NCBI RefSeq assembly: GCF_900105415.1
Contig: NZ_FNSM01000001.1
Coordinates: forward strand, 8,068,001 to 8,132,000
DNA from: Streptomyces sp. TLI_105
GTDB taxonomy: Bacteria > Actinomycetota > Actinomycetes > Streptomycetales > Streptomycetaceae
Direction: 5' to 3'
DNA length: 64,000 nt
Part shown: in pieces, positions 2,964-27,899 of the stretch
Numbering within the stretch: position 1 is the stretch's first letter
How the letters are laid out: each line of letters opens with the position of its first letter
The notes under the pieces: model-generated
Databases searched by the model: none
The model's input: the letters and a program-made list of their open reading frames with translations, nothing else
Told to the model about the DNA's origin: nothing
Made by a program: the position numbers and the translations under genes

Positions 2964-4344
2964 CACCGGGCCCGGGGGCACCGGCTTCACCGGCACCGGC
3001 GGCGAACGCCGTCGCCAGAGCCGCCGCCGGGTCACGGTCCGACGGGCCGGCCGGGGACCAGCGGACCCCGGCCTTCACGTACGGCCACCAGCGCCCGTCC
3101 TCGCCGAGCCGCAGTTGCGCGTCGGCTCCCACGGCCGTCCACCGCGCGCCGCCCGCGCGCCGCAGCGCCGGGCGATCATCCTCCGCCCACGCCTCGGTGA
3201 GCCGGACCGCGGCCCGTTCCAGTGCCTCGGCGTCCGGTGTCCACTCCTCGTCCAGTACGGCGAGGGCGGCGGCGCCGCCGAACCGCCACGCGCGCGTGGC
3301 CGGCTCCAGCTCAGCCCGCGACCTGCCCGAGCCGCCGGCGAGCCGCGCCGCGATCGAGGGAGCGGGGGCGCCCGCCGAGAGCCGTACCGCGTCCTGGGCG
3401 ACCGTCAGGCGGGGCGGACGCGGCAGGCCCGCCCCGTCCGGAGCGCTCCCGTCCCCGCCACCCGTCAACTCGCCGAGCAGCCGGTGCGCGAGTGCCGCCG
3501 CGTCGGCCGCGAGGAACTCCAGGGCCGCAGGGTCGACCCCCGGCTCCGGCGGCGTGTCCGTGTCCAGGGACGGCGGCCGACCCGGCACGGCCGGGGCGAC
3601 CGGAGGGGCGGGCAGCGGCGCCACGAGGAAACCCGCCGCGAACGCCTCCTCGGCCGACACGCCGGGCATCCCGCCGGCCTCTCCGAGCCCGCCGCCCGGC
3701 GCGCCGCCGGTCTGCGCCCCGCCCCGCGCGGACGGCGCGGCGGCCCGTGCCGTACTGCGCGCCTGCAGCTGCTCCAGAAGGGTGCGCTCGCCCCGCCCGC
3801 GCATCAGGAGGAGCACGAACGGGTCCTCGTCGAGGAGGCGGGCGACCTGGTAGCAGAGCGCCGCCGTGTGCGGACAGTGGTCCCAGGCCTCGCAGCCGCA
3901 CTCCGCGTCGAGGTCCCCGATGCCCGGCAGCAGGTCGAGCCCGGCGGCCGCCGCGTCCTCCACCAGGTGCGGCGGCATCTCGCGGTCGAGGAGCGCGGCG
4001 ATGTGACCCGCGCTGTCCACGGCGAGGTCGAGGAGCCGTTCCCACTGCTCCTCCGAGAACTCCCGCACCAGCACGTCGCCGCGGTACGCCGTGCCGTCGT
4101 GGTCCTTGACCACCGCGGTGATCCGGCCGGGCCGCACCGAGACGGCGCCCACCGCCCCCGCGCGCGCGTGCCGCCGTCCCGCCTTGAGCTGCTGCCCGTC
4201 GAGCGCCGTGTCCTCCAGGGCCTTCAGCCATGCCCGTCCCCACCAGGTGCGGGTGAACCCGCCGCCGTGCGCCGGCGGCAGCGCCTCGAAGGTCCGCTCG
4301 TCGTCCCCGTGCCCGTGGCCGCGCCCTTGTCCGTACTCGCTCAT
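2944..4344 (-). CDS. SWIM zinc-finger protein
   Basis: 466 residues from ATG 4344. A C-x-C-x5-C-x-H zinc motif (CGCEAWDHCPH) lies near residue 148-158, which defines the SWIM finger, a likely DNA- or protein-binding module. The N-terminus GGGFTRTWWGRAWLKALE is the usual opening of bacterial SWIM proteins paired with SNF2 helicases. The C-terminal half is Ala/Pro/Gly rich with no recognised enzyme motif. The start codon overlaps the stop of the upstream helicase gene by 4 bp (ATGA), so the two are translationally coupled and probably act in one complex. The true cellular process is not established for the family; chromatin or DNA repair remodelling is a guess. Confidence 0.85.
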   Translation of the reverse strand: MSEYGQGRGHGHGDDERTFEALPPAHGGGFTRTWWGRAWLKALEDTALDGQQLKAGRRHARAGAVGAVSVRPGRITAVVKDHDGTAYRGDVLVREFSEEQWERLLDLAVDSAGHIAALLDREMPPHLVEDAAAAGLDLLPGIGDLDAECGCEAWDHCPHTAALCYQVARLLDEDPFVLLLMRGRGERTLLEQLQARSTARAAAPSARGGAQTGGAPGGGLGEAGGMPGVSAEEAFAAGFLVAPLPAPPVAPAVPGRPPSLDTDTPPEPGVDPAALEFLAADAAALAHRLLGELTGGGDGSAPDGAGLPRPPRLTVAQDAVRLSAGAPAPSIAARLAGGSGRSRAELEPATRAWRFGGAAALAVLDEEWTPDAEALERAAVRLTEAWAEDDRPALRRAGGARWTAVGADAQLRLGEDGRWWPYVKAGVRWSPAGPSDRDPAAALATAFAAGAGEAGAPGPGAIGADG

Positions 4345-22879: not shown

Positions 22880-23665
22880 ATGTTCCGATCCAGGCCTGGC
22901 CGCGGCAGAGCGGTGGGCACGGCACTGCTCGCCGCGGTGTCGCTGATGCTGACTCTGGGGGCCTGCGGAGTCGATCCGGTCACCCCGCAGGACGCCCGGC
23001 AGGAGGGCGGCACGGACGACAAGGCGGGGGGCACGGCCCGCCGCGTCGACTGCGCCGAGGTCACGTGCATAGCCCTGACCTTCGACGCGGGGCCGGGCAA
23101 GGACACCCCCCGTCTCCTCGACGTCCTCAAGGAGAAGCAGGTGCCCGCCACCTTCTTCCTCCTCGGCAGCAAGCACGTCGACCGCTACCCCGAGGTGGTC
23201 AAGCGCATCGCCGACGAGGGCCACGAGGTCGCCAACCACACCTGGTCGCACCGGATCCTGACCGACCTCGACGAGTCCGAGATCCGCGACGAGCTCTCCC
23301 GCACCCAGGACGCCATAGAGAAGATCACCGGCCGGAAGCCCACCCTCATGCGCCCGCCGCAGGGCCGCACCGATGGCACGGTGTCCGACGTCAGCCGGGA
23401 CCTCGGCCTCGCCCAGGTCCTGTGGAGCATCACGGCCAAGGACTACTCCACCACCGACTCGGCGCTCATACGGCAGCGCGTGCTCGACAACGCGCACCGC
23501 GACGGGATCATCCTGCTCCACGACATCTACGACGGGACGGTGCCGGCCGTTCCCTCGATCATCGACGAGCTGAAGCGGCGAGGCTTCACGTTCGTGACGG
23601 TGCCGGAGCTCCTCGCGCCCGGCAAGGCCGAGCCCGGCACCGTCTACCGCCCCGAGAGGGACTGA
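22880..23665 (+). CDS. Polysaccharide deacetylase lipoprotein
   Basis: 261 residues. A lipobox (LTLGAC, Cys29) directs it to the outer face of the membrane. The NodB domain runs from about 57 to 245: TFDAGPG (motif 1; the usual second Asp is Ala), HTWSH (motif 2, metal-binding His pair, about 120-124), RPPQGR (motif 3), and LLHDI (motif 5). It likely removes acetyl groups from peptidoglycan or another cell-wall glycan. The D-to-A change in motif 1 is seen in some active members, so activity is likely but not certain. It is a single-gene unit. Confidence 0.9.
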   Translation: MFRSRPGRGRAVGTALLAAVSLMLTLGACGVDPVTPQDARQEGGTDDKAGGTARRVDCAEVTCIALTFDAGPGKDTPRLLDVLKEKQVPATFFLLGSKHVDRYPEVVKRIADEGHEVANHTWSHRILTDLDESEIRDELSRTQDAIEKITGRKPTLMRPPQGRTDGTVSDVSRDLGLAQVLWSITAKDYSTTDSALIRQRVLDNAHRDGIILLHDIYDGTVPAVPSIIDELKRRGFTFVTVPELLAPGKAEPGTVYRPERD

Positions 23666-23718
23666 CGGACCCGGCGAAAACGGGTGAGGTGACTCACATC
23701 GCCCACCTGGGGTGCCCC

Positions 23719-23745
23719 GGAACATTCGGGAAAGGTTTACCGTTC
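23719..23745 (+). promoter_or_regulatory. ECF-sigma-type promoter (GGAAC-N17-CGTTC)
   Basis: GGAAC at 23719-23723 and CGTTC at 23741-23745 are separated by 17 bp, the pattern of streptomycete sigma-E-type promoters. A start near 23752 would feed directly into the structured sequence that ends at a strong terminator. Confidence 0.5.
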
Positions 23746-23751
23746 ATATGT

Positions 23752-23863
23752 ACGTGACTGCGAAGGGGCCCGGTCCCCAAGGTCCCCCCCAAGAGGTGAC
23801 CGCCCTTCGCCCCGTCACGGCAATCGGCCCCGGTTGGAATCCCCCGTCCAACCGGGGCTTTGT
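23752..23863 (+). ncRNA. Candidate structured small RNA
   Basis: Between an ECF-type promoter and a terminator lies ~110 nt with nested helices: CGTGAC (23753-23758) pairs GTCACG (23814-23819); GCGAAGGG (23760-23767) pairs CCCTTCGC (23803-23810); CGGTC (23771-23775) pairs GACCG (23798-23802). They stack into one arm with a C-rich apical loop, holding a run of seven C, which could pair with purine-rich ribosome sites. No frame inside looks coding. It is antisense to the tail of the MreB-like remnant. No known family was recognised; the call rests on promoter, helices and terminator in the right order. Confidence 0.5.
23827..23863 (+). terminator. Intrinsic terminator of the candidate RNA
   Basis: GCCCCGGTTGGA (23827-23838) pairs perfectly with TCCAACCGGGGC (23847-23858), giving 12 bp with an 8-base loop, followed by TTTG. 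It is the cleanest terminator in the window and has no + strand gene just before it other than the candidate RNA. Confidence 0.8.
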
Positions 23864-24566
23864 CGTTCCCCTGCGCGCCGTTCCCCCTGGGTCTTTCCCC
23901 TGCGCGTCGTTCCCGTGCACCCGTCCGTCAGCCGCGCGGGAGGGCGCCGGCCGGGTGGCGGGGGCGGAGGCCGGCATCAGACCCGCGCCGCGGACGACGC
24001 GGGTGGACGGGTCTTCCGCCAGCCGGAGCCGGGCGCGCAGGAGGTGGGCGAGGCGTCCCGTCACGTCGAGTCGCAGGGCGCCACCGCCGGTCACCAGGAC
24101 GCCCCGGCGCAGCGCCCCGCGGACGGCTCCGGTGCGGTCGTGCCGCCACAGGCCGCTCACCATGTCGGTGGTCGTCGTGGCGATCGCGTCCGGCCCGCTC
24201 CCCGGCTCCGGAAGGTCGTCGGGGCCCACTTCGGCCTGCCGGGCGTCCTCGACGAGGCCGTCCACGACGAGCGTGACCTCCGTCAGCTGGGCGCCGAGGT
24301 CGACGACCAGCAGCGGCCCCCCGTCGGGCGGCGCGGCGTAGGCGGCCGCCGCGCGGGCGCTGTCCACGGCGATGACCCGCACCGGGTCGAGACCGTCCAC
24401 CATCCGCTTCGCCGCCGCCCGCTCCCGCGGACCCGCGAGGACCGGACGGGTCAGCATGACGACGGTGTCGTGCCCGTCGCCGCCCGGGGCCGAGGCGGCC
24501 AGGCGTCGGAGCAGGCGCAGCTGGGAGTCGGGATCGATCACCCGATCGAAGGAGGGGGGAGGCGGG

Positions 24567-25754
24567 TCAGCCCTCGGTGCCGAGCCACAGGTCGGGGCCG
24601 AACACCTCGTAGTGGATGTCCGCCGCCGCGAGGCCCCGGCCGAGGAGGTCGCCCCGCACAGCGCGGAGGAAGGGCAGCGGCCCGCACAGGTACGCGGTGG
24701 TGCCCGCCGGAAGGTCGAGGAGCGTGACGTCCGCCCGGCCCGGCCGGGCGCCGGACTCGCCCGGCTCCTCGTACCAGAGGTGCAGCGTCCCCTGCGGCAG
24801 CGCGTCCACGAGTCGCCGCAGCTCGTCGGCGTGCGCGTGGGAGGCGGGGGCGCGGTCGGCGTGCACCACGACGACCGGGCGGTTCGACCCGGTGGCGACC
24901 AGGTGGTCGAGCATCGCCAGCATCGGGGTGCTGCCGATCCCGGCGGAGGCGAGCAGCAGGGGGCTCTCGCCCTCGGGCAGGACCAGGTCGCCGAAGGGGG
25001 TCGAGACCTCCACGGTGTCGCCCGCACCGGCGTGGGCGTGCAGCCAGGAGGAGACCTCGCCCGCCGGATCGCCGTCGACCCGCTTCACCGTGATCCGCCA
25101 CTGCGGGTGTCCGGGGGCGGCGGACAGGCTGTACTGACGGATCTGCCGGGCGCCGTCGGGCAAGGTGACCTGGACGCTCACGTACTGGCCCGGCCGGAAG
25201 GGGGCGGTGGGGGTGCCGTCGGTGTGCCGCAGGACGAGGGACACCGTGTCGGCCGTCTCCTCCCGCCGCTCGGCGATCTCCATGGACCGCCAGACCTGGC
25301 CCTCGGCGACACCGGCCTCCTGGTAGAGGCGGGCCTCCACGGCGACGAGCGCGTTCGCCATCAGCCAGTACACCTCGTCCCAGGCCTGTGCGACCTCGGG
25401 GGTCACCGCGTCGCCGAGGACCTCCACGATCGCGGCGAAGAGGTGTTCGTGCACGATCTTGTACTGCTCGGAGGTGACGCCGAGCGAGGCGTGCTTGTGC
25501 GCGATCCGGGACAGCATGACGTCGGGGCGGCCGTCCGGGTTCTCCAGCAGGGCGACGGCGAAGGCGGCTATGGAGCCGGCGAGCGCCTTCCGCTGGTCGC
25601 CGTTGGCCTGGTTGCCCCGGTTGAACAGGTCGCGCAGCAGCTCGGGGTGGGCGGCGAAGAGGCGACCGTAGAAGCGCTCGGTGATCTCGTCGAGCGCCCC
25701 TCCGACGGCGGGCAGGGTGGCGCGGACGACCGGAACGGCCTGCTCGGACAGCAT
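24567..25754 (-). CDS. hmp: Flavohaemoprotein Hmp (NO dioxygenase)
   Basis: 395 residues from ATG 25754, preceded by GGAAG. An N-terminal globin domain (1-135) has the proximal haem His in IAHKHASLG (about 84), followed by an FAD domain with RQYSLS (about 205) and an NAD domain with LLLASAGIGSTPML (about 270) and a C-terminal EVFGPDL. Hmp turns nitric oxide and oxygen into nitrate using NADH. The gene is downstream of nsrR, and its leader carries a palindrome typical of an NsrR operator, so it is expected to be induced by NO. Translation could also start at TTG 25766, but that would overlap the operator. Confidence 0.95.
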   Translation of the reverse strand: MLSEQAVPVVRATLPAVGGALDEITERFYGRLFAAHPELLRDLFNRGNQANGDQRKALAGSIAAFAVALLENPDGRPDVMLSRIAHKHASLGVTSEQYKIVHEHLFAAIVEVLGDAVTPEVAQAWDEVYWLMANALVAVEARLYQEAGVAEGQVWRSMEIAERREETADTVSLVLRHTDGTPTAPFRPGQYVSVQVTLPDGARQIRQYSLSAAPGHPQWRITVKRVDGDPAGEVSSWLHAHAGAGDTVEVSTPFGDLVLPEGESPLLLASAGIGSTPMLAMLDHLVATGSNRPVVVVHADRAPASHAHADELRRLVDALPQGTLHLWYEEPGESGARPGRADVTLLDLPAGTTAYLCGPLPFLRAVRGDLLGRGLAAADIHYEVFGPDLWLGTEG

Positions 25755-25764
25755 GGGAACTTCC

Positions 25765-25788
25765 AATCTGGTAGATCATCTACTTATT
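25765..25788 (-). promoter_or_regulatory. Putative NsrR operator before hmp
   Basis: The centre TAGAT-C-ATCTA lies within an AT-rich block (A-A-T-C-T-G-G...C-T-T-A-T-T) just upstream of the hmp start. Its size and core (ATCTACC) resemble the known Streptomyces coelicolor NsrR sites at hmpA and nsrR. Likely bound by the [4Fe-4S] form of NsrR. Confidence 0.65.
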
Positions 25789-25825
25789 AAAAGGCGTGCG
25801 GATGCCTCCCCGGGGGCGGGTGCCG

Positions 25826-26275
25826 TCAGGGCGATCCCGCGGGGTGCGGACTGAGGGTCAGCAGCAGCGGACCGGTCGGCGACTCCACGAGCTCCGCCAC
25901 GGTCAACGGATCCAGCACGCGGTAGAAGGCCTCCTGCGCCTCGCGCAGCGCTCCGCGCAGCCGGCACGCGGTGCGCAGCGGGCACGGCGGATCGCCCTCG
26001 CAGGCGACGACCTCCTCCTCGCCCTCCAGGGTCCGGGCCAGCCAGCCCACCGACGAGCGCCGCCCCAGCTCCGTCAGGGCCAGACCGCCGCCCCGGCCGC
26101 GCCGCGCCTCGACCACGCCGAGGTGCTGGAGCCGGGTGACCACCTTCGCCATGTGGGCGTAGGGCACGTCCATCGACTCCGCCACCTCGCGGGTGGTGAC
26201 GGACTCCTCGGGTGCGGTGACCGCCAGGCGCATCACGGCACGGAGCGCCAGGTCGGTGAACTTCGTCAGCCTCAC
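25826..26275 (-). CDS. nsrR: Nitric-oxide-sensing repressor NsrR (Rrf2 family)
   Basis: 149 residues from GTG 26275. The winged helix is at the N-terminus (MRLTKFTDLALRAVMRLA ... TTREVAESMDVPYAHMAKVVTRLQ). The Fe-S ligands are present as C-x5-C-x5-C (CEGDPPCPLRTAC, about 93-105), and Asp8 corresponds to the fourth ligand described for the Streptomyces NsrR cluster. NO destroys the [4Fe-4S] cluster and releases DNA. It lies directly upstream of hmp on the same strand, and a second operator-like sequence lies before it, which suggests autoregulation. Confidence 0.93.
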   Translation of the reverse strand: MRLTKFTDLALRAVMRLAVTAPEESVTTREVAESMDVPYAHMAKVVTRLQHLGVVEARRGRGGGLALTELGRRSSVGWLARTLEGEEEVVACEGDPPCPLRTACRLRGALREAQEAFYRVLDPLTVAELVESPTGPLLLTLSPHPAGSP

Positions 26276-27696: not shown

Positions 27697-27899
27697 TCCT
27701 GCACACTCCGTTCCCGCGCGGACCGGGGAAGGCCCGGCGATGCAGCGAGTCTCACCCGACCCTCGCGCGTCCGCATGTCGTGACCGCCCGCGTGCGGGCC
27801 CTCCGCCGCCGTGTTCGGATGGAGGGCGCGGACCGCCGAGCCGACGCATCACACGCCCGCGCGGAGCCGCGAACCGTACGAGGAACGGGACGGAGCACC

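Follow-up and report, generated by a model that had tools for sequence, protein, structure and literature searches.

To our knowledge, few Streptomyces small RNAs (sRNAs) have known regulators or targets. cAMP signalling affects development and antibiotics in Streptomyces, and CRP-linked sRNAs include CyaR of E. coli and the mycobacterial Mcr11. The 6C RNA (RF01066; mycobacterial B11/6C) is an actinobacterial sRNA of two hairpins with runs of C in its loops. In M. tuberculosis, 6C RNA is said, in work by Mai and colleagues from 2019, to bind several mRNAs through these C-rich loops. Within Streptomyces, scr1434/sar6912/svr1031 and scr5583/sar2652/svr5279 are described as conserved sRNAs with predicted C-rich loops (PMC3765725). 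The conserved sRNA scr5239, 159 nt long, pairs with mRNAs, folds into five consecutive stem-loops and is controlled by DasR (PMC4365011, PMC7025569); its Rfam entries are RF02605/RF02673 (PMC8079986).

We analyzed a candidate sRNA gene in a 64,000-nt stretch of the Streptomyces sp. TLI_105 genome, referred to as the window. The element belongs to a conserved sRNA-like gene family that has no Rfam entry. What is new here is a predicted CRP-type dyad, read from the sequence, that stands in front of the element at fixed spacing.

Parts of the element

The element and its upstream signals are as follows (window coordinates).

23684–23697, + strand: CRP-type dyad GTGAGGTGACTCAC (GTGA-N6-TCAC), predicted from sequence and a comparison of spacing
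23719–23723, + strand: GGAAC, -35-like element of an ECF-type promoter, in 39/39 aligned class A copies
23741–23745, + strand: CGTTC, -10-like element, N17 after GGAAC, in 39/39 class A copies
23752–23863, + strand: candidate class A small-RNA element, with the 5′ end inferred at about 23750–23753 and the 3′ end at the terminator tail
23753–23758 / 23814–23819, + strand: outer stem CGTGAC / GTCACG, covarying between classes A and C
23760–23767 / 23803–23810, + strand: second stem GCGAAGGG / CCCTTCGC, covarying between classes A and C
23771–23775 / 23798–23802, + strand: inner stem CGGTC / GACCG, from the predicted fold
23784–23790, + strand: seven consecutive C within the apical loop, read from the sequence and mostly unpaired by prediction
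23827–23858, + strand: terminator hairpin, arms 23827–23838 / 23847–23858, 100% complementary
23839–23846, + strand: C-rich terminator loop ATCCCCCG, with CCCCCG kept in classes A, B and C

An initial annotation, made from the sequence of this locus, had proposed an ECF-type promoter, nested stems, a run of seven C and a terminator, and all of these can be read from the sequence where it placed them. The dyad lies just outside the coordinates of that annotation and was absent from it. With up to one mismatch allowed, the genome contains the core of the terminator hairpin a single time. The tails 3′ of the terminator are T-poor in class A copies, a point against the sRNA reading proposed below.

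Family and size classes

A DNA search of the own genome and 60 relatives gave matches in 20 of the 61 genomes, all of one genus. With the neighboring polysaccharide deacetylase (Pfam PF01522) as bait, the element was found downstream in 36 of 80 named loci, judged by its terminator alone. These 36 loci, the window and two relatives make up the 39 rows of the class A set.

A covariance model built from 38 class A copies found at least 72 places in at least 61 of 150 Streptomyces genomes; searches over more than 40 genomes used stricter filters and their counts are lower bounds. By length, nine of the 72 places measure 108–113 nt, 37 measure 83–98 nt and 26 measure 159–163 nt. We refer to these sizes as class A (~110 nt, as in the window), class B (~85 nt) and class C (~160 nt). 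Each of the nine genomes with a class A-length match has one match; among the 61 genomes, six contain both class B and class C. An end-to-end alignment of class C with class A shows one insertion of ~50 nt. At family rank, matches were found in at least 61 of 297 genomes and at least two of 17 genera.

The initial annotation took the segment to be non-coding. Class A copies vary in length by single bases (80 to 85 from GTTC to the terminator), variation that does not fit a conserved reading frame.

Fold and covariation

The 145-nt segment has a minimum free energy of -68.2 kcal/mol (z -3.39), and none of 200 shuffles folds equally well. The seven-C run was initially described as unpaired; by prediction it is mostly so but not wholly (mean 0.77 over 38 class A sequences). 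A second C-rich loop lies in the terminator, where CCCCCG is predicted to be unpaired with a mean of 0.98 in 38 class A copies. The corresponding predictions for the terminator loop are 0.86 in 26 class B sequences and 0.84 in 19 class C sequences. By prediction, the element has the accessible C-rich loops of trans-acting sRNAs of the C-rich-loop type.

The class A alignment holds 38 of the 39 rows, leaving out the shortened form L074 (L004, L005, L079 and L080 are absent from the 39). The class B alignment holds 26 of 32 distinct sequences, leaving out six longer-stem forms, and the class C alignment 19 of 23 loci, leaving out three whose terminator was missed by the pattern and one duplicate. 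For the joint A+C alignment, 12 of the 38 class A rows were hand-picked for diversity and combined with the 19 class C rows.

Support from covariation comes mainly from the comparison between classes, because class A alone shows little: two of 32 pairs changed on both sides, a count that 41 of 500 shuffles attain. The joint A+C alignment has nine of 23 pairs changed on both sides, compared with 4.2 in shuffles, and none of 500 shuffles reaches nine. Class B alone has six of 23 pairs changed on both sides (1.6 in shuffles; 0/500 reach six). Pairing is kept in 96.9% of cells in the joint alignment and drops to 30–56% when the partners are slid by 1–3 columns. By part, the share of paired cells is 89.0% in the outer stem, 98.6% in the second stem and 99.4% in the terminator. 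Judged from these alignments, the outer stem, the second stem and the terminator covary between classes. Substitutions that break pairs without compensation had been named as evidence that would count against the element, and no such breakage was seen in the second stem or the terminator, with the outer stem at the lower value given above.

The nested stem proposed initially holds up in part. Its outer and second stems covary, whereas the inner stem falls outside the class C consensus fold. In class A the inner stem is near-invariant, with one U-G cell as the sole variation; in its place class C has a local GGGGAC/GUCCCC hairpin within a branched fold. Of the initial interpretation, the anatomy of a small-RNA gene, the conservation, the covarying stems and the C-rich loops are supported.

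Promoter and CRP-type dyad

The promoter-like sequence GGAAC-N17-CGTTC is present in all 39 class A copies, which were picked by terminator. GGAAC is also found in 21/21 class C copies and in 2/34 class B copies. For a separate set of 42 class A promoters, the count of GGAAC is circular because the set was picked by GGAAC and GTTC.

The strongest regulatory signal of the element, as far as can be judged from sequence, is the CRP-type dyad. Its center lies 51 bp ahead of the G in GTTC and at about -61 of the inferred start, a distance typical of CRP at class I promoters in E. coli. GTG-N8-CAC lies 51 bp before GTTC in 36 of the 39 terminator-picked class A copies (38/39 within 1 bp), where the chance rate from other positions predicts ~0.01 dyads at this place. 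The same spacing holds for 9 of the 12 class B copies that were identified by similarity (11/12 within 1 bp) and for 10 of 21 class C copies (16/21 within 1 bp; 5/21 have none within 1 bp). Because the dyad pattern itself was used to retrieve the class B loci L160–L189, independent class B evidence for the dyad is limited to L009–L021. At plasmid places, a dyad lies within 2 bp of the 51-bp spacing in 8 of 12 cases and is missing in 4 of 12. The sequence between the dyad and the -10 element differs widely though the spacing holds. A dyad at a constant promoter position, as expected for a member of a Crp regulon, is thus present on the sequence.

The combined pattern GTGA-N6-TCAC-N44-GTTC-N8-GTG occurs in 117 of 392 genomes, once in each, and the reversed control gives one among the matches listed; four of the 117 (G030, G068, G156, G308) look chance-like by eye. 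A loose dyad pattern, searched in the own genome, gave 91 matches versus 9 for its reversed control. We set this pattern aside because such numbers make it too unspecific to define a regulon.

Published motifs are GTG(N)8CAC for GlxR and GTG(N)6GNCAC for S. coelicolor Crp (PMC10033298). Class B dyads mostly fit both, whereas class A dyads (GTGAG..CTCAC) fit GTG(N)8CAC and mostly do not fit GTG(N)6GNCAC; the window site fits the looser GTG-N8-CAC alone. The own genome encodes a full-length Crp/Fnr-type frame of 249 aa, with Crp/Fnr-family regulators as its best matches among solved structures.

The initial annotation had instead proposed an sRNA that depends on sigma-E and serves envelope stress, an explanation in which the dyad is of no importance. 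Here GGAAC is followed at ECF spacing by a -10 element that contains TC, and the AAC expected of a sigma-E -35 element is found in GGAAC at 23719–23723 and in 39/39 class A copies. The common sigma-E -10 element is CGTC, which occurs in 53 of the 91 promoters in a published sigma-E table, while the CGTT of this element occurs in five (PMC6767563), and dependence on sigma-E is not favored by these counts. sRNA goes unmentioned in the main text of PMC6767563. The dyad is no less constant than the promoter, and the regions read around classes B and C show no conserved envelope gene, which does not favor an envelope-stress role. We consider the sigma-E explanation unlikely.

A single base separates GGAAC-N18-GTT from GGAAT-N18-19-GTT, the consensus for sigma-R (PMC9205884). 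Since CGTC is common in the sigma-E table and sigma-R is one base away, the ECF factor need not be sigma-E. Nor need the sigma factor be common to all classes, because class B mostly lacks GGAAC; it may differ between them.

Genomic neighborhoods and plasmid copies

Class A lies downstream of the deacetylase gene, and class B precedes a small gene; one plasmid record annotates this gene as cyclic nucleotide-binding. Class C places are variable, with many different neighbor genes in either orientation; in two genomes the copy lies just 3′ of a ribosomal L31 protein gene (one Pfam-confirmed). In class B, the cyclic nucleotide-binding gene comes next in the same orientation, an arrangement that would suit a cis-acting leader or attenuator governing read-through into the downstream gene. 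The varied neighbors and orientations of class C speak against such a role, as does the window, where a crude gene call places the next + strand gene at 27780, and we rate a leader as improbable. An element that starts 86 nt past the stop codon of the deacetylase gene, in the same orientation, could also be just the 3′ end of the deacetylase mRNA with its terminator, or an sRNA cut from that mRNA. We rate this as highly improbable, since the intervening sequence has a conserved dyad and conserved promoter elements, and classes B and C show the same anatomy beside other genes.

A search of 72,556 plasmid records found class C at 62 places on at least 49 records. Of these 49 records, 47 are from Streptomyces, one from [Kitasatospora] papulosa and one from Nonomuraea. 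Among 20 plasmid records listed, 18 have no gene under the match and two have no annotation; the plasmid gene table is incomplete, and one of the 18 gene-free records holds a single annotated feature overall. One Streptomyces canus plasmid (NZ_CP109336.1, L218) carries two class C copies ~3.5 kb apart, with promoters at 3986 and 7439, and both have GGAAC-N18-GTTC. Plasmid sigma-factor genes near class C (L217, L219) were considered as partner sigma and rejected: the two proteins look unlike each other, and seven of the nine annotated class C plasmid regions that were read have no sigma gene within 4 kb.

In the window, a flavohemoprotein-like gene (globin, FAD and NAD domains) lies at 24567–26275 on the - strand, convergent to the RNA, and adjoins an Rrf2-family regulator gene. 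These neighbors are presumably a typical NO-detoxification pair. A link to hypoxia or NO was dropped, as no flavohemoprotein or Rrf2 gene was seen in those class B and C neighborhoods that were read. Between about 23880 and 24560, also on the - strand, a frame weakly resembles MreB/actin-like proteins, with a best match of 27.5 bits against a cut-off of 27; it extends into the flavohemoprotein region and is perhaps a gene remnant.

Proposed mechanism

Our best reading of the sequence, which we hold with moderate confidence, is that the element encodes a trans-acting sRNA with C-rich loops, controlled by CRP and an ECF sigma factor. A CRP-family activator and the sigma factor would together switch on the promoter, and an RNA of ~110 nt would be transcribed from an inferred start at about 23750–23753. 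Its C-rich loops may pair with G-rich ribosome-binding sites and block translation of target mRNAs, by analogy with other RNAs that have C-rich loops. Predicted loop duplex energies at 49 gene starts of the window, compared with sites inside genes, were -9.59 versus -8.83 and -9.21 versus -8.12 kcal/mol, slightly stronger at the starts as the mechanism would predict, and given here without a significance test.

A broader reading is more tentative, and we consider it possible but doubtful. The unregistered family with its three classes could form a post-transcriptional arm of cAMP-Crp, in which an AND gate made up of an ECF stress factor and of Crp at -61 would fire a C-rich-loop silencer of many mRNAs; class C on plasmids would then plug foreign DNA into the host circuit.

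The family offers a switch that can be tested, in which an ECF-type promoter is combined with a Crp-type site at a fixed distance. If the switch reading is true, cAMP signalling would be linked to control of mRNAs. Its three sizes form a natural series that reveals the retained parts, namely the outer stem, the second stem and the terminator with its CCCCCG loop. The plasmid copies are part of the value of the family.

Comparison with known RNAs

At Rfam thresholds, neither the element in the window nor the class A–C loci that were scanned gave a match. The sole match in the window is a ZMP/ZTP riboswitch at 747–854 on the + strand (49.7 bits; Rfam cut-off 39). Relaxed searches of 23600–24000 (E up to 10) and of five further loci (E up to 1) gave matches far below the cut-offs. 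One class B copy had a weak match to sX13 (23.9 bits; cut-off 50). The initial suggestion that the element may be new stands as far as Rfam families at threshold are concerned, but is weakened by the list of 176 S. venezuelae sRNAs in the supplement of PMC3765725, which quite possibly includes it. In the literature available to us we found no description of the element.

Identity with 6C RNA was rejected: RF01066 has no match in the window (cut-off 47), nor at E up to 10 in 23600–24000. Elsewhere in the own genome, a separate RF01066 place at C1:4485721-4485796 scores 46.2 bits and narrowly misses the cut-off of 47. Seven of 12 other genomes of the genus that were searched have no RF01066 match above 47. 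Because of these two results the Rfam cut-off for 6C seems strict for Streptomyces. For scr5239, neither RF02605 nor RF02673 matches at the gathering threshold in the window or in the class A–C loci scanned; the scans at threshold included seven class B and C loci, and five further loci gave no match to these models at E up to 1.

The 159 nt of scr5239 come close to the size of class C, but its five stem-loops and its control by DasR set it apart. The scr1434/sar6912/svr1031 and scr5583/sar2652/svr5279 sRNAs resemble the element in conservation and C-rich loops; they are named for other flanking genes, and on these names, in the part of PMC3765725 available, identity with any class of the element is unlikely. 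CyaR and Mcr11 are similar in their CRP-type control, which for the present element is predicted; the latter has an ECF-like promoter and plasmid copies. With 6C RNA the element shares C-rich loops in an actinobacterial sRNA, and it differs from 6C RNA in its promoter architecture and its size classes.
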